A stretch of 25,618 nt of DNA from a virus: positions 1 through 25,618 of IMG/VR virus record IMGVR_UViG_3300040789_000010. The stretch is one strand, 5' to 3'. Below are positions 1-21,063 of the stretch, one piece after another (position 1 is the stretch's first letter; each line of letters begins with the position of its first letter). Below the pieces are notes generated by a model. The model was not told where the DNA came from and ran no database searches. It saw only the letters and a program-made list of their open reading frames with translations. Position numbers and translations under genes: made by a program.

Positions 1-238
1 CGACGGGCGGGACGCCCGTCTCGAGCCACTGCAGGTTGACCCCGGTGGCCAGTGCCCACGCCTTCAGCACGATGCGCCGCGGGGCCACTTTGCCCGTCTC
101 GTTGTTCGAGACCGTGTTGCGCCCAACCCCCATCGCCTCGGCCAGGTCTGCTTGATCTAGACCAGCGAACTCTCGCGCCACACGAAGTCGAGTGTGGCGT
201 TCAATGCTGGGTACTGCGCCGACTGGTTGCGTGCTCAT
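1..238 (-). CDS. XRE-family helix-turn-helix regulator, C-terminus outside window
   Basis: The reading frame opens with ATG at 238 and has no stop before the left edge, so 79 residues are visible. Residues about 17-60 match the Cro/C1-type helix-turn-helix: helix two is DQADLAEAMG (28-37) and the recognition helix is GRNTVSNNETG (39-49). The visible end, ALATGVNLQWLETG, is the usual continuation seen in actinophage repressor-like proteins. The family binds operator DNA as dimers. The gene is divergent from the integrase, so a lysogeny repressor or a Cro-like early regulator are both possible; the visible part cannot separate them. No Shine-Dalgarno precedes the ATG, and a promoter-like pair lies just upstream, which suggests a leaderless message. 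Fold confidence is high; role confidence is moderate. Confidence 0.85.
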   Translation of the reverse strand, partial: MSTQPVGAVPSIERHTRLRVAREFAGLDQADLAEAMGVGRNTVSNNETGKVAPRRIVLKAWALATGVNLQWLETGVPPV

Positions 239-244
239 GTGCCC

Positions 245-274
245 AACTTAGCGCAAGTCTTGATCAGTGCGCAA
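245..274 (-). promoter_or_regulatory. Putative leaderless promoter of the XRE gene, with direct repeat
   Basis: On the minus strand a TTGCGC box (274-269) and a TAAGTT box (250-245) are separated by 18 bases, and the ATG at 238 is about 7 bases after the -10-like box, where transcription would begin. The hexamer TTGCGC occurs again at 256-251, directly upstream of the -10 box, so a regulator could bind both copies. The boxes are only partial matches to a housekeeping promoter, so this is inference from spacing and from the missing ribosome binding site. Confidence 0.4.
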
Positions 275-437
275 TCCCTGGTGGCATGGCGGCCAGCGCC
301 ACCCGAGGTCGCCGACACCTACGTGCGCCACCACTTCAACGGGCAGCCGTGGCGGCCCTGGCCCGAAGCTGCAGCAGAGGCCGGCGTCGACCCTCGACCC
401 TGCCTGCCGTAAGCGCCAGGTCAAAGCACGATCCGCG

Positions 438-1325
438 ATGGTCAAGACACGCCCAGGGCTACGTCTGGTCCCGGTCAGCGAAGCGCACCCGGGCGTCGGT
501 GTAGTGCATTCTCCGGTAATGCAGCAGGGCAGCAGCAGAGATGCTGTAGAGGATTTCGAGACGTGGCTGCGAGCCGGGGGCCGGCCGCAGTCCACGATCG
601 ACCTACGCATCTACCAACTCGGGCGGGTCTCCCGCGAGCTCGGGGACCTGCACGCGCTCACCACGGCGCAACTCGTCGACTGGGTCGCCAGCAAGGGCTG
701 GGCCACGTCGACGCTGCGGTCCTACCGGGCCGCGCTGACCACCTACTACCGGTGGGCACACCGCACCGGGCACATCACCACAGACCCCACCGTGGGCCTA
801 CCCACCATCGGCGGCCCGCACGGCGCGCCACGACCCGCCGACGAGCGCACCGTCACCCAAGCCATCCTGCGAGCCACCCCGCGGGTGCAGCTTATGATCC
901 GACTGCAAGCCAGCGCCGGCCTGCGCCGAGCGGAGGTCGCCCGGGTTCATACCCGCGACATACTGACCGACCCCGGCGGGCACAGCCTCCACGTCACCGG
1001 CAAGGGTGGCCGCGAACGGATCGTGCCGCTGACCCGCGACCTCGCCGCCCGGCTACGCGAGAGCCCCGAAGGGTGGCTGTTCCCCTCGAGCACCCACCCA
1101 GGGCACCTGTCGGCCAGGTACGTGGGGAAGCTGATCAGTGATGCCCTAGGGCCCGGCGTCGTCCCCCACCAGCTGCGGCACCGGTTCGCGACCCGTGCCT
1201 ACGCCGCCGGCCAAGACCTGCTCGCCGTGCAACAGCTGCTCGGGCACGCACGCCCCGAGACCACCATGATCTACACCCACGTCCCCACCGAAGCGAAGCG
1301 GCACATCGTCAACACCGCCGCCTAA
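438..1325 (+). CDS. int: Tyrosine recombinase / phage integrase (short, Xer-like)
   Basis: This enzyme should carry out site-specific recombination between phage and host attachment sites. From ATG 438 it has 295 residues: a SAM-like core-binding domain (about 30-115) and a catalytic domain (about 125-290). The active-site set is complete: Arg163 in GLRRAEV, Lys189 in GKGGRERIVPL, His244 and Arg247 in HQLRHRF, His270 in LLGHARPETT and nucleophile Tyr279 in IYTHV. No separate N-terminal arm-binding domain is visible, so it resembles XerC/D more than lambda Int. The start is uncertain: no strong ribosome binding site precedes 438, and an in-frame ATG at 519 would still keep both domains. The frame stays open to 267, but that part reads as low-complexity, non-coding translation. 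It is divergent from the XRE gene and 52 bases ahead of the lipoprotein gene. Confidence 0.93.
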   Translation: MVKTRPGLRLVPVSEAHPGVGVVHSPVMQQGSSRDAVEDFETWLRAGGRPQSTIDLRIYQLGRVSRELGDLHALTTAQLVDWVASKGWATSTLRSYRAALTTYYRWAHRTGHITTDPTVGLPTIGGPHGAPRPADERTVTQAILRATPRVQLMIRLQASAGLRRAEVARVHTRDILTDPGGHSLHVTGKGGRERIVPLTRDLAARLRESPEGWLFPSSTHPGHLSARYVGKLISDALGPGVVPHQLRHRFATRAYAAGQDLLAVQQLLGHARPETTMIYTHVPTEAKRHIVNTAA

Positions 1326-1377
1326 CCCCGACCCGGCTACCTCCAACCCAGGGGGGAGGCCACCACCAGGAGGAAGC

Positions 1378-1854
1378 ATGGCACGCAAGCTCATCACCGG
1401 GATCGTCGCAGCAGGAACAGGGATCCTGCTGTTCTCCTGCGGCGCCGTCGTCGGCAGCGCCGGCGACGACACCACACCCACCACCGAGACAGTCACCGTC
1501 GCCGGGCCCACACCCGCAGCGGTCACCGTCACCGAACCCGCACCCGAAGGCGAGCCCGCGACCGAGACCATCACTGAGACACAGACCGCGACGGAGACTG
1601 AGACTGCCACCGTCACCGAGACCGTCGAAGCCGCAGCACCCGAAGGAGATGGAGACATCGGGCTGTCCGACTCCGAGATCGGGTCGATGGCCCTCGAAGT
1701 CACATGGGGCAACATGTCCACCAGCCAACAGGGCGACATCTGCCTTGGGTGGGGCCTCGACCAGGACGCCATGCTCGACGCGTTCCTGCAGGGCAGCGAC
1801 GACATGGTCACCCGGAGCGAAGCGGAAGCGTTCTTCGACGGCAAGTGCAACTGA
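1378..1854 (+). CDS. Secreted or lipid-anchored protein with Thr/Glu-rich stalk
   Basis: The 158-residue product starts after a good AGGAGGA ribosome binding site. It begins with a signal-like segment: basic MARK, a hydrophobic stretch to about residue 20, and LLFSC, a plausible lipobox although Phe at -2 is not ideal. Residues about 30-95 are a Thr/Glu/Pro/Ala-rich stalk with repeated TET and TVTE motifs. A compact C-terminal part (about 97-158) holds two cysteines, in DICLGW and at GKCN near the end, which could form a disulfide. A stalked cell-surface protein beside integrase is a common setting for lysogenic conversion or superinfection exclusion factors. That role is inferred from context, since no specific family was recognised. 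It may be cotranscribed with int and is followed by a terminator. Confidence 0.8.
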   Translation: MARKLITGIVAAGTGILLFSCGAVVGSAGDDTTPTTETVTVAGPTPAAVTVTEPAPEGEPATETITETQTATETETATVTETVEAAAPEGDGDIGLSDSEIGSMALEVTWGNMSTSQQGDICLGWGLDQDAMLDAFLQGSDDMVTRSEAEAFFDGKCN

Positions 1855-1882
1855 TCCGCCTCATCGACAGCACAGCAAAGCC

Positions 1883-1913
1883 GCCCCACCCTCCTGCGCT
1901 GGGAGGGTGGGGC
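1883..1913 (+). terminator. Intrinsic terminator after the int/lipoprotein genes
   Basis: A perfect 12-bp GC-rich stem (1883-1894 with 1902-1913) has a 7-base loop and is followed by a moderately T-containing stretch, TTCTTGT. It lies 28 bases after the lipoprotein stop and just before the next promoter, so it isolates the two transcription units. Its left flank and arm share the 14-mer AAGCCGCCCCACCC with the terminator at 2801-2834. Confidence 0.8.
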
Positions 1914-1933
1914 AGACGTTCTTGTATAGCGGG

Positions 1934-1963
1934 TTGACACTTCCCTGCACTTCGTTGTATAGT
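1934..1963 (+). promoter_or_regulatory. Consensus sigma-A type promoter of the two-gene operon
   Basis: TTGACA (1934-1939) and TATAGT (1958-1963) are separated by 18 bases, an almost ideal housekeeping promoter and AT-rich against very GC-rich surroundings. The gene start at 1997 is about 33 bases downstream, with a GAGGAAGAGG ribosome binding region between. The -10 box is embedded in a palindrome, so repression is expected. Confidence 0.85.
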
Positions 1964-1972
1964 GGCTATACA
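1956..1972. promoter_or_regulatory. Palindromic operator over the -10 box, with an upstream half-site
   Basis: TGTATAG-TGG-CTATACA is a perfect inverted repeat with 7-base arms and a 3-base centre. It covers most of the -10 element and the expected transcription start. The half-site TGTATAG is repeated in the same orientation at 1923-1929, just upstream of the -35 box and 33 bp away, about three helical turns. This is the classical layout for a dimeric repressor that occludes RNA polymerase. The binding protein is unknown; candidates are the 131-residue HTH protein of this operon and the XRE protein at the left edge. Confidence 0.75.
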
Positions 1973-1996
1973 CACCGAGGAAGAGGAACCCACACC

Positions 1997-2356
1997 ATGC
2001 AGAACGAGACCAGCACCCAGACCGGCGGGCTACGGCCCCGCCGCCGCCACGAGTCCCCCGAGGACAAGGCCGCCCGCGCCGCCCGCGAGCAGGCCCGCGC
2101 TGACGCAGAGACCAAGGTCTTCACCGACTCACTCGGCAACGACGTCGACCCGATGGTCATGGAGACCGCCAAGCAGCTGGGCAACCAAGCGCTCACGCCC
2201 GACCTAGCGGGGCGCTTTGCCCTCGCCGACGACACGGACTGGGCAGACATCGTGGCCCCCGTCGCAGCCGCCGGCAAGGGCCAGGCCTACACCGACGCAC
2301 GCCGCGCCGCCCGCGCCGCTGCATGGGTCCGCGCCTACACCATCCTGTCCCGCTGA
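1997..2356 (+). CDS. Hypothetical protein, first gene of the palindrome-controlled operon
   Basis: The product is 119 residues from ATG 1997, placed about 10 bases after a GAGGAAGAGG ribosome binding region. The first 50 residues are highly charged (GLRPRRRHESPEDKAARAAR) and probably helical or disordered. The rest is a mixed helical domain containing MVMETAKQLGNQALTP and a C-terminal Ala/Arg-rich helix ending WVRAYTILSR. No signal peptide, membrane segment or known catalytic motif is visible and the family was not recognised. It sits 30 bases ahead of a gene for a helix-turn-helix protein, and both share one strong regulated promoter. A regulatory pair, a toxin-antitoxin-like pair or an immunity module would all fit; nothing in the sequence selects among them. 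Confidence 0.75.
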   Translation: MQNETSTQTGGLRPRRRHESPEDKAARAAREQARADAETKVFTDSLGNDVDPMVMETAKQLGNQALTPDLAGRFALADDTDWADIVAPVAAAGKGQAYTDARRAARAAAWVRAYTILSR

Positions 2357-2386
2357 CCCCCGCCCCCACCCCCAGGAGAAGCCACC

Positions 2387-2782
2387 ATGCAGACCTACAA
2401 ACGAGCGGACCGGCTTACCACCAGCGACCGAATCCAGGCATGGGGCCGGCAGCACATCGTCACCGCTGACCCCACCCCTGTCACCAGCACACGCGAGCAC
2501 GCCGAAGAGCGGGTCGAGGTCCCGCTTCTGGACGTGCACAGCGGCGAGCGCACGGTCATGGACTCCCGTGCCGACGATCAGCTGCTCATCGACACCTCGG
2601 AGCTCTACGACCTGGGCGCGCACGTCGCCGCTCACCGGCAGGCACAGTCAGCGGCCGAGGACGCCCTGGCCGCACTCAAGACCTGCGTGCGCGTCGTCGT
2701 CGCAGACGGGATGACCGAGGTCGAGGCCGCCCGCCAGGTCGGCGTCACCCGCATGACCATACGGGCTTGGCTCGGGAAGTAG
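2387..2782 (+). CDS. Putative DNA-binding protein with C-terminal helix-turn-helix
   Basis: This 131-residue protein follows an AGGAGA ribosome binding site. Residues about 108-131 form a resolvase/transposase-type helix-turn-helix: MTEVEAARQVGVTRMTIRAWL has the expected Ala in the first helix, Gly at the turn and TRMTIRAW as recognition helix. The preceding 107 residues contain an acidic part and a helix (about 85-105), and may serve for dimerisation or partner binding. No recombinase active site is present, so a regulator is more likely than an enzyme. It is the last gene of its operon, ends 18 bases before a strong bidirectional terminator, and is a good candidate for binding the palindrome at 1956-1972 and regulating itself. 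Confidence 0.78.
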   Translation: MQTYKRADRLTTSDRIQAWGRQHIVTADPTPVTSTREHAEERVEVPLLDVHSGERTVMDSRADDQLLIDTSELYDLGAHVAAHRQAQSAAEDALAALKTCVRVVVADGMTEVEAARQVGVTRMTIRAWLGK

Positions 2783-2800
2783 CCCGGCCCAGGACATGAC

Positions 2801-2834
2801 GAAGCCGCCCCACCCGTCAGGGTGGGGCGGCTTC
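2801..2834. terminator. Bidirectional terminator between convergent blocks
   Basis: A perfect 15-bp inverted repeat (2801-2815 with 2820-2834) closes on a 4-base loop, GTCA. It lies 18 bases after the plus-strand operon and downstream of the minus-strand tRNA-like element and lysis genes, so it can stop transcription from both sides. No long T-run follows, as is usual in high-GC actinobacteria. It shares the 14-mer AAGCCGCCCCACCC with the terminator at 1883-1913. Confidence 0.88.
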
Positions 2835-2845
2835 CGTTGGGGGGG

Positions 2846-2925
2846 TGGAGGCGCTGGGACTCGAACCCGGGTGCACCGGCCCTCCGACAAGCGGTTCTGA
2901 GCCGGCGACGATACCTGTCGCCCCC
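2846..2925 (-). tRNA. Atypical tRNA-Leu(CAG)-like gene or tRNA remnant, D-arm missing
   Basis: On the minus strand 80 bases fold like a class II tRNA. The acceptor arms GGGGGCG and CGCCTCC pair over seven positions (one G-U) and are followed by A73. The T-loop GTTCGAGTC sits on a stem with one mismatch. The anticodon loop CTCAGAA gives anticodon CAG (Leu) with U33 and A37; its stem has three firm pairs. A long variable arm with a stem of about 6 bp (including wobbles) and loop AGGG is as expected for tRNA-Leu. Only about 12 bases remain for the D region instead of 19 or more, so no D-arm forms. It could be a degraded phage tRNA, a functional odd tRNA, or a tRNA-derived attachment sequence. 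CCA is not encoded. Confidence 0.5.
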
Positions 2926-2976
2926 GTGACGCCCGCGGTGAGCATGAGGGCTCAGGCGGGTCGTTGTGGGTCGATT

Positions 2977-3009
2977 CTACTCGCCCCAGACCACAACGCT
3001 GCTGATCAT
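2977..3009 (-). CDS. Ten-codon mini-ORF with a perfect Shine-Dalgarno
   Basis: On the minus strand AGAGGAGGT is followed after six bases by ATG and nine more codons (MISSVVVWGE), then TAG. The ATG overlaps the stop of the preceding 50-residue gene as ATGA. The mini-ORF overlaps an imperfect hairpin (2963-2972 with 2989-2997). It could be a short leader peptide, or the 5' end of a gene lost by deletion. The binding site is among the strongest in the window, but a coding role is unproven. Confidence 0.3.
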   Translation of the reverse strand: MISSVVVWGE

Positions 3010-3158
3010 GCCGGTACCTCCTCTACGTGGGTCGGTGCGGGACAGGCAGGGTCAGACGCGAGCACCATCAGAGGCGGCACCCCCAGGTAGACGAGCAGGC
3101 CGCGCAGCACACCCCGCGCCTGGTAGGCACGCACACAGGTGCACCGCGTCGCCGGCAT
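3006..3158 (-). CDS. Small putative membrane protein next to the holin
   Basis: The 50-residue frame starts with ATG five bases after the holin stop, so translation is probably coupled; no clear independent ribosome binding site is seen. It has a basic, cysteine-containing N-terminus (MPATRCTCVRAYQARG), one hydrophobic segment (GVLRGLLVYLGVPPLMVLA, about 16-34) and an acidic tail ending HVEEVPA. Its stop overlaps the start of the mini-ORF (ATGA). One short membrane span beside holin and endolysin suggests a lysis accessory or holin modulator. That is inference from position; no family was recognised. Confidence 0.55.
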   Translation of the reverse strand: MPATRCTCVRAYQARGVLRGLLVYLGVPPLMVLASDPACPAPTHVEEVPA

Positions 3159-3163
3159 CAGCG

Positions 3164-3451
3164 TCAGGTGGTGGGGTCGACCTCGGCGGCCGGTGCCTCA
3201 TCGTCCTCGATGAGCGCCACCGTCTGGCCATCCTGCGCCGGGGTGTTCGTCGCGGCCGTGTACCCGATCGCGGTCCCCAGGAAGGCGTAGACGGACAGGG
3301 ACACAGTCAGCCACACCGGTTGCCCGGCGTCGGCGGCCGCATACCCAACCTGGGCGGCGCCGACACCGAGACCCACGAACCCGAACACGGTGTAGACGTG
3401 GCCACGGGCCTTGGCGGGGATGAAGCCAGGGTTGAAAGCCGGCATGGTCAT
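3164..3451 (-). CDS. Phage holin, two membrane segments
   Basis: Holins collect in the cytoplasmic membrane and open at a set time to free the endolysin. The product has 95 residues with two hydrophobic segments (about 17-40, HVYTVFGFVGLGVGAAQVGY; about 46-67, VWLTVSLSVYAFLGTAIGYT). The loop between them is short and the C-terminus is acidic (LIEDDEAPAAE). Size, spacing and the pattern GQPxWLTVxLxVYAFLG are those of small actinophage holins. The start ATG overlaps the endolysin stop by four bases (ATGA), and AAGGAG lies eight bases upstream. A second in-frame ATG occurs at codon 3. The position directly after the endolysin strongly supports the call. Confidence 0.88.
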   Translation of the reverse strand: MTMPAFNPGFIPAKARGHVYTVFGFVGLGVGAAQVGYAAADAGQPVWLTVSLSVYAFLGTAIGYTAATNTPAQDGQTVALIEDDEAPAAEVDPTT

Positions 3452-4566
3452 GGGGTGTTCTCCTTCTCGTCGAGCTCGGCGGCCACAGCGGCCGTGTAGG
3501 GCCGCGGCGGCGCCCCGAGGGTCTTGGATGCCACCTGCATCTGGATGTCAGCAGGGGAGCCAGGGTCAGCAGGGAAGCGGCGGTGCTCGGGGTCGAGCAC
3601 GAGACCGCGGCGCAGGAACCACCACGCGTTGAAAGGCCCGTGGTGGGCGACGACGTACGACCAGACCAGGCGGGGCACCCGCATGATCTCGGTCTTGACG
3701 ACCTCTCGGACGTCCGCGCGGGACGCCGCGGGCTCAGCCGTGCGGAGCTGGTCCACGTCGTCCTGGAGGTTGTCCAGCTTCTGCTCGATGCGCTGCAGTG
3801 TCACGTTGTACTCCTTGTGTGCTCTGGTCGTGCGGGAGCCCCACAGTCCGTCTGCGGGGCCAGGGTCGAACCCGGCCTTGTCGAGGTGACGTTGGTGCCT
3901 GGCGACAGCGGTCCGGGTCTTCGGGCCGTAGTCACCGTCGACGGTCACGCCGACGACGGCCTGCACCTGCTCAGTGGTCATACCGACCGGCTCGTACCGC
4001 TCGGTCTTCGCGATGATCTTCGCGGCGGCGCCCCAGTCCGGCCGGTGCGTACCGACGATCGTCCCCGACCGCAAGTAGCGGCGCTGCCGAGACACAGTCG
4101 CGCCCTCACCCGGCCGGCCACCGCCCCGGCCGGAGGCGACCGAGTTGAAACCGACCGTGTCGAAGAACCACCCCCGCTGCCGGTCATAGCCGGCGTCAGC
4201 GGTGAGGATCTCGACGTGGTTCGTTGGGTTCTTCGACCGGCCCCCCGACGGGTTCGGGAACCGCATCATGAGGATGTCGCCGCGTACCGCGTTCCGATAC
4301 CCCGGATACTCCCGGTTCCTCCGGAACCAGCCCAGCCACAACCACGTCGCAGCCCACCCCACCGTCATCCCACCCTGGCGACCGATGGCCGCATTGCCAG
4401 CGGGGACGCCCAACGCCCACATCACACAGGTGCTGATCCCGCGAGCGCACCACAGCCCCTGCCACCCGTTCTGCGCGTACTTCGACCTGCGCGGGTTGCC
4501 GCTGCTGTACCCCACCTGCTTCTCGACGACGCGCATCACGCGCTCGATGACCTCGTGCTCAGTCAC
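3448..4566 (-). CDS. Endolysin with cysteine-peptidase/amidase and peptidoglycan-binding domains
   Basis: The product should cut host peptidoglycan at the end of infection. GTG 4566 is chosen because GGAGGA lies six to seven bases upstream, giving 372 residues; the frame is open 15 codons further but without a binding site. The N-terminal domain (about 1-170) resembles CHAP or NlpC/P60 enzymes: likely nucleophile Cys40 in GLWCARGIST, then RGDILMM, and His117 in NPTNHVEIL. Residues about 195-275 look like a PG_binding_1 domain (VDGDYGPKTRTAVARHQ, then DGLWGSRTTRA). A short coiled coil (LQRIEQKLDNLQDDVDQL) and a C-terminal region of about 85 residues follow, with the Trp-rich stretch VWSYVVAHHGPFNAWWFLRR and unknown role. 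There is no signal peptide, so it depends on the holin, whose gene it overlaps. Confidence 0.9.
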   Translation of the reverse strand: MTEHEVIERVMRVVEKQVGYSSGNPRRSKYAQNGWQGLWCARGISTCVMWALGVPAGNAAIGRQGGMTVGWAATWLWLGWFRRNREYPGYRNAVRGDILMMRFPNPSGGRSKNPTNHVEILTADAGYDRQRGWFFDTVGFNSVASGRGGGRPGEGATVSRQRRYLRSGTIVGTHRPDWGAAAKIIAKTERYEPVGMTTEQVQAVVGVTVDGDYGPKTRTAVARHQRHLDKAGFDPGPADGLWGSRTTRAHKEYNVTLQRIEQKLDNLQDDVDQLRTAEPAASRADVREVVKTEIMRVPRLVWSYVVAHHGPFNAWWFLRRGLVLDPEHRRFPADPGSPADIQMQVASKTLGAPPRPYTAAVAAELDEKENTP

Positions 4567-4586
4567 GGGTGTTCCTCCAATGCAGA

Positions 4587-4608
4587 AGCCCCGCACAGTG
4601 GCGGGGCT
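4587..4608 (-). terminator. Hairpin between membrane-protein gene and endolysin
   Basis: An 8-bp stem (AGCCCCGC with GCGGGGCT) and a 6-base loop lie between the stop at 4634 and the endolysin start at 4566. No T-run follows, so it may weaken transcription into the lysis genes or act as an RNA-processing or stability element rather than a full terminator. Confidence 0.45.
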
Positions 4609-4633
4609 CACGGTTACGGGTGGTCCGGTTCGG

Positions 4634-5113
4634 TCAGGTGTCTTGACGTGGGATGCCCATCGGGCCGGGGCGGGTCCACGTCATCAAGGCAGGGTCGATC
4701 CGGTCATGCAGCTCGGGTGGGATCGGTGACGTCGGCCGGTCGTGCCCGGCGCGCATATCCCGCAGCAGCCGCTCGATGTACGACACCGCTGTGGACAGCA
4801 TCCGCTCGAGCGACTCGACCCGGCCCGCCATCAGGTTCATGTCGCGGTGTTGGGAGTCGAGCCTGGCCGAGACCTTCGCGATCTGCGCCTTGTGCGTCTT
4901 CAACTCACGGTCTTGACGCTCCAACTGCGCCGACAACATGGCGTTGAGCGACCCCGCGGTAGCCATCTGCTGCTCGGCCATCGTGGACGCAGCAGACGCC
5001 CTCGTCACAGGATCGCGTGACTTCCACTTGTGCGTCAGCCACGCACCGGCCAGCAGGGCCACGGCACTGACGATGGAGGCGATCACAGTGGAGTCGATGC
5101 TGGCCAGGCTCAT
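4634..5113 (-). CDS. Membrane-anchored coiled-coil protein of the lysis region
   Basis: The 159-residue product has one N-terminal membrane segment (about 8-26, TVIASIVSAVALLAGAWLT), then basic THKWKSR, which would leave the remainder in the cytoplasm. Residues about 45-120 form a long coiled coil (QLERQDRELKTHKAQIAKVS and following heptads). The tail is proline-rich (HDRPTSPIPPE). Its ATG overlaps the stop of the preceding gene (ATGA). Such proteins between tail and lysis genes may be second holins, antiholins or spanin-like factors. The sequence gives the architecture but not the function. Confidence 0.78.
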   Translation of the reverse strand: MSLASIDSTVIASIVSAVALLAGAWLTHKWKSRDPVTRASAASTMAEQQMATAGSLNAMLSAQLERQDRELKTHKAQIAKVSARLDSQHRDMNLMAGRVESLERMLSTAVSYIERLLRDMRAGHDRPTSPIPPELHDRIDPALMTWTRPGPMGIPRQDT

Positions 5114-5580
5114 GTGTCACCGCGCTCGGTCTGCCGCCGCACAGCCCACTCCTCCACCCGCTCCAGGGCGACGATCCGCAGCACGTGAGCTGCGATAGCC
5201 GCCACGGGCGGGGCCAGCGTCAAGAACGTCTCTTGGTAGTAGACCACCCAGAGCCACAGATAGATCAGCCACCCAGCGGTAGCTGCGACCAGCCCAAGGC
5301 GTTCCTTCATCCACGCCACCGTGGAGTCCTGCGGGTCACCCGACAGCAGCAGCCCGCAGAGGATGAGCCCGCCCCCGACCAGGAACGCGGCGGCCATCAG
5401 GATTGTCGGGTAGAGCGGCAGCACCGCCAGGGTGGACGCTGACAGCCACCACGACGCGACCCGGCCAGCGCAGAACGCCGCCCCGAGGACCAGGTACATC
5501 GCCGCCAGGCACACCTCGAACGGGTGCGCCAAGACACGGTCAGGGACCGTGGTGGTGGCGGTGTAGCGACGGTCAGGCAC
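5110..5580 (-). CDS. Four-span integral membrane protein
   Basis: GTG 5580 is chosen because GGAGG lies nine bases upstream and the preceding gene stops within eight bases of overlap; this gives 156 residues. Four hydrophobic segments are visible: around FEVCLAAMYLVLGAAFCAG, LYPTILMAAAFLVGGGLILC, LVAATAGWLIYLWLWVVYY and LTLAPPVAAIAAHVLRIVAL. The C-terminus is charged and cytoplasmic-like (VEEWAVRRQTERGDT). It joins the coiled-coil membrane protein by an ATGA overlap. A holin-like or membrane-remodelling role in lysis is possible from position; no family was recognised. Confidence 0.8.
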   Translation of the reverse strand: MPDRRYTATTTVPDRVLAHPFEVCLAAMYLVLGAAFCAGRVASWWLSASTLAVLPLYPTILMAAAFLVGGGLILCGLLLSGDPQDSTVAWMKERLGLVAATAGWLIYLWLWVVYYQETFLTLAPPVAAIAAHVLRIVALERVEEWAVRRQTERGDT

Positions 5581-6274
5581 CGCTGACCACCTCCCACAAC
5601 GCCGGCACCAGCGGCGGAGTGTGCACCGAGATCGACGCGTGATCCTGCAACGCCCGATACGTGACACCCTCGAAGACCACCAGGTTGCCTACGACATAGT
5701 TCACGCCCGCGAGCCAATCCACCGGGCCGGGGCCGTCGCCGTCAGGGTCGACCCACAGCTCCCACAGGGCCGGTGTGTTCGGGGGCTCCTGCCCGGCCTG
5801 CGCCGTGTGAGCCTGGATGCAGTCGTAGACGTCAGCAGCCCAGATCACCGAGTCGCCGACCTCGTAGACCTGCCCCGGCTCCCAGTTGTCGTCACCGGGG
5901 CCGGGCGCCGGCGTTGAGATGTCTTTCCACCACCGGTAAGCCTGCGGGTCACCATCGTCGCCGGGCTCAGTGGTGTTCGCGGGAATCAGCGACACCCACA
6001 CCGTGCCGGCATGGGCCACGACGAAGTTCAGCGGGTACGCATCATGAGCCCCGGTCGGCTGAACCCACGGCGGGGCCTCGCCCGACGCCACGCCCCGATC
6101 CCGAGCCCGCAGATAGCCCCTAGCCACGTCGTCACGCTCCCGCACCAGGCGCGCCTCCACCTCTTGCGCAAGCCCAGGCGCCTCCTCCAAGGTTCGACGT
6201 GCGTTCATCTCTGCCTGCACGTCCCGGAACAGCCGACGCAGTTCGTCTGTGGACAGCTCGGTCAAGTCAGTCAT
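5573..6274 (-). CDS. Tail-associated carbohydrate-binding protein with tandem CBM-like modules
   Basis: The 233-residue product begins with a charged helix (about 1-55, TDELRRLFRDVQAEMNARRT) that could anchor it to the tail. Three related modules follow, about 67-118, 129-170 and 187-232. The last two have the CBM5/12 (chitin-binding) signature: an aromatic start (DNWEPGQVYEVGDSV; VDWLAGVNYVVGNLV), a mid-module Tyr (VYDCIQAHT; TYRALQDHAS) and a PALWE ending. The first module is more divergent (LNFVVAHAGTVWVSLIPAN). Such repeats usually bind surface glycans, so a receptor-binding or accessory fibre protein is likely. It lies nine bases downstream of the large tail fibre gene, consistent with a shared tip structure. 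The glycan specificity is unknown. Confidence 0.8.
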   Translation of the reverse strand: MTDLTELSTDELRRLFRDVQAEMNARRTLEEAPGLAQEVEARLVRERDDVARGYLRARDRGVASGEAPPWVQPTGAHDAYPLNFVVAHAGTVWVSLIPANTTEPGDDGDPQAYRWWKDISTPAPGPGDDNWEPGQVYEVGDSVIWAADVYDCIQAHTAQAGQEPPNTPALWELWVDPDGDGPGPVDWLAGVNYVVGNLVVFEGVTYRALQDHASISVHTPPLVPALWEVVSGA

Positions 6275-19779: not shown

Positions 19780-21063
19780 TCAGGCCGCCGACTGGCCGTT
19801 GACCAGTCGCGCCGGCTTCCAGATGACCTGCTCCGCGCGGAGCTCCGCGCGGACGTAGGTCAGGTTGCGCTGCGCGAAGTCCCGGTGCTGGTTGAACGCC
19901 AGGATCGACAGACCCTCCACGTCGAGCAGAGCGACCTGCCGGAAGTCACCCAGGATGTACTGGCCCGCAGCGAGCCGCTCCGAGGTCACCCGGGGGCGAC
20001 CCCACAGGGTGCCCGGTCCGGAACCGAACGGGCCCTGACCGTAGAACCGGTCCTGCGCGTCCTGCATCAGGTCGATCATCTCGTCGTCCTCCGGCGAGAC
20101 CATCACCGCAGTCACCGTGCCACCCGGGGTGCGGGTGACATCGGTGATGCCCTGACGGACCGACTTCACCAGAGGCATCGCGTCACCCGCTGCGGCGGTG
20201 TACTCGCGCTGCTGGACACCGGTCGTGTTCAGGATGCCCCGCGGCTCACCGTTGGTGCCGGTGCCGTTGAGCAGCTTGTCTTCGATGACCGAGTCCAGGG
20301 AGTACCCAACCTCACTGTTGAGGTAGGTCGCCAACGCCGGGGCGTCCGACAGCATCTGGTTCGTCACCACATAACCATCGGCGTAGGTGTACGGCTTGGC
20401 GTCCGCGAGCTGCGTCGCGAACTCACTGACCGGCTTCAGCGCGGCCGCGTCGTCGTCGGCGGTCGCCTCGGGCACGATCGCGGCACGGCGGGTCACCGAG
20501 GTGATCTGCACGTACTCGAACGCACCCGCGGCCTGGCCACGGGTGACCAGGTCGAGCAGCGTCAGCCGGTCACGGTCGACCGTGTTGACGGTGGGGTAGC
20601 GGGCCGGCGCCAGCCGTGCCGTGGGCGAACCGATCACGTCGGCTTTCGCGCCACCTGCCTGGCGGTCGTACCACTCACCGAGCGAGCCGACCTTGACCTT
20701 CCCGATGTCCACGATCGAGCCCTGCCCGACGCCCGTCGGGTGCTGCTTCGCGAACCCGGTGTAGGCCTTCGACCCGGTGAACCGCTCACCGAACGTGCGC
20801 GGCTCGTCGGTGTCCTTCCCGCCGTCCGGGTCGTGCCCGGTGTCGTCGGCGAAAGTGGTGGAGTCGGCGCCGGTCAGCTGAGCGATCAGCTGGGACGACT
20901 TCTCCGCTTTCTCGATCTTGTCCGTGAGGTCTTCGATCTCGGACTGCTTGGACTGCAGGTCCGCGACCTCCTCGTCGGTCAGGTCCCGCTCCTCCGAGCG
21001 GGCCTTCGCGATCACTGCCTGCGCTGCCTTCACCAAGGCAGCGCGCTGGGCCTTGAGATTCAT
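19780..21063 (-). CDS. Major capsid protein, HK97 fold, with delta domain
   Basis: The 427-residue product starts one base after the protease stop. Residues about 1-65 are a coiled-coil delta domain (LQSKQSEIEDLTDKIEKAEK), then a variable linker (to about 105); the protease normally removes this region in HK97-like phages. The HK97 signature follows: RDRLTLLDLVTRGQAAGAF, ADAKPYTYADGYVVTNQML, the spine-helix region LATYLNSEVGYSLDSVIEDK, GTNGEPRGILN, and SPEDDEMIDLMQDAQDRFYG before a C-terminal P/A-domain end with YVRAELRAEQVIWKP. The family is unambiguous. Gene order (protease, capsid) and a strong hairpin downstream fit high expression. Confidence 0.95.
   Translation of the reverse strand: MNLKAQRAALVKAAQAVIAKARSEERDLTDEEVADLQSKQSEIEDLTDKIEKAEKSSQLIAQLTGADSTTFADDTGHDPDGGKDTDEPRTFGERFTGSKAYTGFAKQHPTGVGQGSIVDIGKVKVGSLGEWYDRQAGGAKADVIGSPTARLAPARYPTVNTVDRDRLTLLDLVTRGQAAGAFEYVQITSVTRRAAIVPEATADDDAAALKPVSEFATQLADAKPYTYADGYVVTNQMLSDAPALATYLNSEVGYSLDSVIEDKLLNGTGTNGEPRGILNTTGVQQREYTAAAGDAMPLVKSVRQGITDVTRTPGGTVTAVMVSPEDDEMIDLMQDAQDRFYGQGPFGSGPGTLWGRPRVTSERLAAGQYILGDFRQVALLDVEGLSILAFNQHRDFAQRNLTYVRAELRAEQVIWKPARLVNGQSAA

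Follow-up and report, generated by a model that had tools for sequence, protein, structure and literature searches.

We find that a near-consensus promoter in a tailed actinophage is very probably under negative autoregulation. HTH131, the product of the second gene in the operon that this promoter drives, is predicted to bind two operators, O1 and O2, and the whole appears to form a moron-like cassette. The sequence comparisons below make HTH131 the most likely regulator of the promoter. The DNA analysed (hereafter, the window) is a 25.6-kb fragment of the phage, whose early region lies outside it. Its structural genes are on the minus strand, from the terminase at the right to the lysis genes at the left, and the nearest named portal proteins are those of Arthrobacter phages (~40% identity). 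The portal protein of IMG/VR contig 3300040788_000014, which comes from a different sample, is 100% identical to that of the window; we take this contig for a fragment of a nearly identical phage.

Table 1. Coordinates, strands and basis of the window features discussed in the text.
Feature	Position	Strand	Remarks
XRE gene	1-238	-	starts at 238, runs off window edge
Integrase	about 438-1325	+	
Lipoprotein-like gene	1378-1854	+	between integrase and promoter
Hairpin upstream of promoter	1881-1915	.	end of lipoprotein gene's unit; folding z -4.3
Operator O1, TGTATAG-CGG-GTTGACA	1923-1939	+	predicted site; imperfect palindrome overlapping -35; left arm 1923-1929
-35 hexamer TTGACA (consensus)	1934-1939	+	promoter scan
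Operator O2, TGTATAG-TGG-CTATACA	1956-1972	+	predicted site; perfect palindrome covering -10; arms 1956-1962, 1966-1972
-10 hexamer TATAGT	1958-1963	+	promoter scan; 18-bp spacer to TTGACA
Likely ribosome-binding site GAGGAAGAGGA	1977-1987	+	sequence reading
ORF119 ("cargo")	1997-2356	+	first gene of operon
HTH131	2387-2782	+	second gene; 131 residues; predicted autorepressor
Codons of Thr121 and helix 122-129 of HTH131	2747-2773	+	covariation; helix from structure model
Hairpin downstream of HTH131	2798-2838	.	between convergent units; folding z -4.8

The original prediction described a TTGACA-18-TATAGT promoter with the perfect palindrome TGTATAG-TGG-CTATACA over its -10 hexamer. Both are exact, and the palindrome is far beyond chance: the search proposed with that prediction, for TGTATAG-N3-CTATACA, was run on the 25.6-kb window with up to three mismatches and returned only positions 1956 (none) and 1923 (three), with 0.02 expected. 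With 11/12 matches, the promoter is the sole promoter-like site in bases 1 to 6000 (0.3 expected from shuffles). TGTATAG occurs three times in the whole window, every copy at this promoter (0.15 expected), and of the 50 perfect inverted repeats whose arms reach 7 bp or more, O2 is the only one with AT-rich arms (0.05 expected). The AT-richness claimed for the promoter and operator was borne out, being equalled by only 9 of 25,568 fifty-bp segments. The TGTATAG copy noted 33 bp upstream is present and flanks the -35 hexamer, but it is not the mere half-site it was taken for: it belongs, as left arm, to a complete second operator, O1, whose right arm contains the -35 hexamer. In a search for repeats, 1922-1940 and 1955-1973 match as a tandem pair 33 bp apart, and the left arms of O1 and O2 start at the same offset. 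From the spacing of the hexamers, transcription is expected to start at about position 1970.

The first gene of the operon, ORF119, belongs to no recognisable family: profile and sequence searches gave nothing above noise, and direct homologues are absent from the phage records and IMG/VR searched. Direct homologues of full-length HTH131 are absent from the phage records, plasmids and IMG/VR searched, and no relatives of its N-terminal half were detected. Its C-terminal HTH matches phrog_2311 (E 6.5e-9) and phrog_7061 (E 6.9e-9) in profile searches and, weakly, the HTH proteins of phiPsal1, Finkle, Thimann, Percival and cluster K phages. The structure model has a long helix (residues 70-106) followed by a two-helix C-terminal HTH (111-118 and 122-129), with pLDDT 94-98 over residues 81-131. 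Thr121 stands at the start of, or just before, the modelled recognition helix, a position from which a residue of this kind can contact a base. A structure search with HTH131 returned generic HTH matches only, none with E < 0.001.

Two neighbouring features deserve mention in their own right. The lipoprotein-like gene has a Thr/Glu-rich repeat region and no family match above threshold; it is possibly a surface protein expressed by the prophage. On the minus strand, positions 2843-2925 form an 83-nt element in which the two termini of tmRNA are recognisable (Rfam RF00023, E 2e-17) but 292 positions of the model are absent. A TTCGA loop is present, as is a possible Leu-type (CAG) loop, whereas a normal D arm is lacking. 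ARAGORN does not detect the element, which also folds no more stably than shuffled sequences; it could be a degenerate tRNA or tmRNA, or part of an attachment site.

We find that operators of this kind are tied to genes of the HTH131 family. A profile of the C-terminal HTH collected 61 virus loci, in which the promoter-like sequences upstream of the HTH genes share one design: the -35 and the -10 hexamers each lie within a palindrome, for example TGTAGACAggTCTACA over the -35 with TGTAGAGTggTCTACA over the -10, or TGTATAG-N3-T(T/A)GACA with TGTATAGTnnTATACA. The O1-like arrangement TGTATAG-N3-TNGACA recurs in L278, L291, L316, L339, L340, L342 and L343. When the inner bases are left free, the regions preceding the HTH genes (62.8 kb) contain 52 copies of TGTA-N8-TACA and the rest of these loci (304.5 kb) 5 copies, while other spacers between 2 and 15 give 0 to 2 sites. 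The 5 copies in the rest of the loci, which resemble further promoters, follow closely after the HTH genes of Percival, L299 and L314. Sites with at most one mismatch are present in 51 of 61 upstream regions, compared with 2 of 53 control segments.

The tie also holds when the search starts from the DNA. The pattern TGTATAG-N3/4-TNGACA-N15/16-TGTATAGT occurs in seven IMG/VR contigs, and in 7/7 an HTH-family gene lies downstream, including two that are cut by the locus end yet show family sequence; four of the seven contigs had been missed by the protein search. In whole records of relatives, the site was found in 25 of 28, and in 24 of these 25 it marks a single promoter (one or two sites), the exception being Percival with four places. 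A reversed control pattern does not occur in the 28 records. Paired sites are also present in 5/5 plasmid loci that were added later from a separate collection. The claim that a complete repressor switch drives two unrecognised genes is thus well supported, with the architecture conserved before relatives of HTH131. Literature searches returned no report of this operator family.

Several further sites were seen. In the Microbacterium phages Percival (L277) and Gretchen (L355), small genes that neighbour the HTH gene have the TGTATA operator at their promoters, which seem to be leaderless; the Percival copies, at record positions 20246, 36702, 45223 and 45550, perhaps form a small regulon. In cluster K mycobacteriophages (ZoeJ and kin; L276, L328, L330 and L332), the HTH reads GVDRLT, and a conserved palindrome, TGTTGACGYGCCAACA, which precedes the end of the HTH gene by about 460 bp, is perhaps another operator class. 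In an unrelated phage (L002), TTGACA-18-TATAGT is likewise enclosed in a palindrome of this kind, there in front of an ATPase-like gene, and promoter-in-palindrome architecture can therefore also arise elsewhere. Searching whole genomes for the bare palindrome gave more than 100 matches, spread over many lineages that are often AT-rich and in several cases located at MarR genes, and was uninformative for the phage.

The window is a variant of this design. TGTA...TACA palindromes cover both its -35 and its -10 (O1 imperfect, O2 perfect), but both sites are 17 bp long, whereas family sites are 16 bp, with 52 N8 and no N9 sites upstream of HTH genes. The offset between O1 and O2 is 33 bp, compared with 31 bp in other TGTATA units and 23-24 bp in TGTAGA units. 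Because O1 and O2 share the extra base, we read the 17-bp spacing as reflecting a matching change in HTH131 rather than decay. Since neither ORF119 nor the N-terminal half of HTH131 has detected relatives, the window cassette is, by these sequence comparisons, a distant member of the family; its 17-bp sites make it an outlier and not a typical member.

The residue that precedes the RMT motif in the HTH covaries with the operator. Counted over distinct HTH domains having a site, of which L340 and L342 entered the set through the operator search, Asp before RMT goes with TGTAGA/TGTAG-type half-sites (G:C at position five) in 25/25, and Thr or Asn with TGTATA...TATACA in 7/7, the window (Thr121, TGTATA) included. 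The sole case of Ala (L319) has a hybrid site, TGTAGACTGATATACA. The covariation has a Fisher p of 1.9e-6, calculated over sequences that are related and not independent. On a tree, residue class changes at least five times and operator class five times; firm branches carry just two independent residue-operator pairs, both concordant, a number with which a sign test cannot reach significance. Plasmid loci pair Asp with G:C at position five in 5/5. Four of these (L348, L349, L350 and L352) have Asp with TGTAGA; in the fifth, L351, GVDRMNVR replaces GVDRMTVR and the site is TGTAGT...ACTACA, a second co-change. Proteins with Thr and RRT (the phiPsal1 group and Finkle) go with GTGTACAC or GTGTATAC. 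That the sites exist, that they go with the HTH gene and that residue and base covary can all be read from the sequences themselves.

In content and placement, the units behave like morons. The cargo gene between promoter and HTH gene is missing in about half of them. Where present, it is GNAT-like by Pfam in L320 and L349 (PF00583 E 1.5e-4 in L349) and by sequence similarity in L321, L322, L323 and L351, and it is a "YRIQ" protein in L291, L342 and Finkle; the remaining cargo proteins, ORF119 included, are unrelated. Cassettes lie antisense adjoining the tape-measure gene in L290 and antisense between the portal and terminase genes in L296, near endolysin, recombinase or integrase genes in L295, L313, L329 and L278, and also on Streptomyces and Rhodococcus plasmids. 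In the window, the downstream hairpin is a likely terminator, though without a clear U-run. Thus, the HTH unit appears to be an autoregulated, hairpin-bracketed cassette with variable cargo, often antisense among phage structural genes.

Operators over the -35 and -10 are in the usual place for repression. As O1 and O2 cover both hexamers, they would therefore act to repress, and because the operator-tied gene is the HTH gene, HTH131 most likely represses its own promoter. HTH131 would bind O1 and O2 as a dimer, probably formed through the long helix 70-106, and would block RNA polymerase at both hexamers, with Thr121 contributing to recognition of the half-site TGTA(T)A at its fifth base. On entry into a cell that lacks HTH131, the near-consensus promoter would fire and then shut itself off, giving a pulse; in a lysogen, it would idle at a low level. 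The proposed unit comprises promoter, operators, zero or one variable cargo gene, the HTH gene and flanking hairpins, and occurs, moron-like, at many sites of actinophage genomes and on plasmids. From binding to the pulse, these steps are inferred, as is any role of the cargo. In most Asp-type units that lack cargo, the HTH protein would regulate itself alone, which counts against the autorepressor reading.

The original prediction further suggested that the classical lysogeny switch of the phage may lie here and not at the XRE gene. HTH131 would then be the immunity repressor and XRE a Cro-like or secondary regulator, which we consider unlikely. The operon is near the integrase, on the strand opposite to the structural genes. 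XRE is divergent from the integrase in the window (1-1325), unlike in Angel and Bakery, where repressor and integrase genes are co-directional and overlapping. In phiPsal1, the HTH gene is the sole leftward gene in its region, divergent from the early genes, and the phiPsal1 group has operator-like words in the intergenic region shared with those genes; the four Percival operators are dispersed. The HTH131 family may thus control early genes in the phiPsal1 group and Percival. However, the XRE protein shares 53% identity with gp33 of phage Angel, a BPs-type repressor, and 62% with gp54 of Gordonia phage Bakery, annotated as immunity repressor; these two are the repressors of BPs-like and Wizard-like phages. 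The XRE protein is thus a recognised immunity-repressor homologue; HTH131, with phrog_2311/7061 as best match, is not. Some HTH relatives lie within head or tail gene clusters. Because it is confined to one promoter in 24 of 25 records (the window's own early region lying outside), the operator does not look like that of a master regulator, and the lysogeny claim is unsupported.

XRE might instead bind the palindromes itself, so that the lysogeny repressor would have the operon as a secondary target. In favour of this, PR is not the only promoter under the control of BPs gp33, which acts through palindromic half-sites on several others at dispersed positions (PMC4557955). The gp33 half-site, CGACATATGTCG (PMC4557955), is unrelated to O1 and O2 and shows no enrichment in the window (8 matches against 10.4 expected), TGTATAG is missing from the XRE-int intergenic region, and from phage to phage the operator goes with the HTH131 family; XRE is very unlikely to be the binder. 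Binding by a host repressor is more improbable still, even though exact TGTATAG-N3-CTATACA stands at MarR-type genes in L128, L162, L190, L152 and L166. These sites are in other lineages, at another position relative to the promoter and without a phage tie, and a host repressor leaves the covariation with the HTH residue unexplained. The MarR-type proteins are a different family using the same word; their genomes are Firmicutes, Spirochaetes and one Chloroflexota, and two of the loci also have the palindrome at a neighbouring gene resembling a MATE-type transporter. That ORF119 and HTH131 form a toxin-antitoxin pair with an autoregulating antitoxin is doubtful. Two small genes in one unit, promoter palindromes, relatives on plasmids and GNAT-like cargo in several relatives are consistent with such a pair, but the cargo gene is so often missing, and cargo proteins fall into unrelated groups. 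The cargo matched no toxin or defence model, and the conserved toxin partner of a type II toxin-antitoxin system is not seen.

If autoregulation by HTH131 is taken as the preferred reading, a broader and distinctly tentative one can be drawn from these comparisons. Actinobacterial phages and plasmids might carry mobile self-repressing cassettes whose recognition helix and operator have co-diverged (TGTATA, TGTAGA, TGTAGT and TGTACA), such that a resident cassette silences incoming ones of its own class, while the entry of a cassette from a different class produces a pulse of cargo expression. If true, this would be heteroimmunity at the level of the single cassette, with a readable recognition code. 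The preferred reading, for its part, gives a likely function and DNA target to phrog_2311/7061, a common uncharacterised phage protein family, and would make the operator of each member predictable from a few residues. It would also provide natural repressor-promoter pairs of differing specificity from GC-rich hosts.

Among known systems, the closest are the phrog_2311/7061 proteins annotated "HTH DNA binding protein", such as Finkle gp30 (Gordonia), phiPsal1_028 (Pontimonas) and Percival gp69 (Microbacterium). HTH131 shares their C-terminal HTH with its GV-X-RMT-R-WLGK-like motif and differs in its N-terminal half and cargo, which are unrelated. Finkle resembles the window in having cargo and then the HTH gene, opposite to the structural genes and between membrane-protein genes and the integrase; unlike the window, Finkle and phiPsal1 have RRT helices and GTGTACAC/GTGTATAC words. 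The repressor gp33 of BPs and Angel, known for integration-dependent immunity, acts on promoter palindromes, as proposed here for HTH131. Its homologue in the window is the XRE gene and not HTH131, its operators differ from O1 and O2, and, as the window's repressor gene is cut at the edge, an attP-in-repressor arrangement is unreadable there. Phage morons are insertions that bring along a promoter and a terminator. The window unit is like them in its own promoter, its flanking hairpins (candidate terminators), its opposite strand and its varying insertion sites, among unrelated late genes in L290 and L296; it is unlike them in having a dedicated repressor and paired operators of its own.
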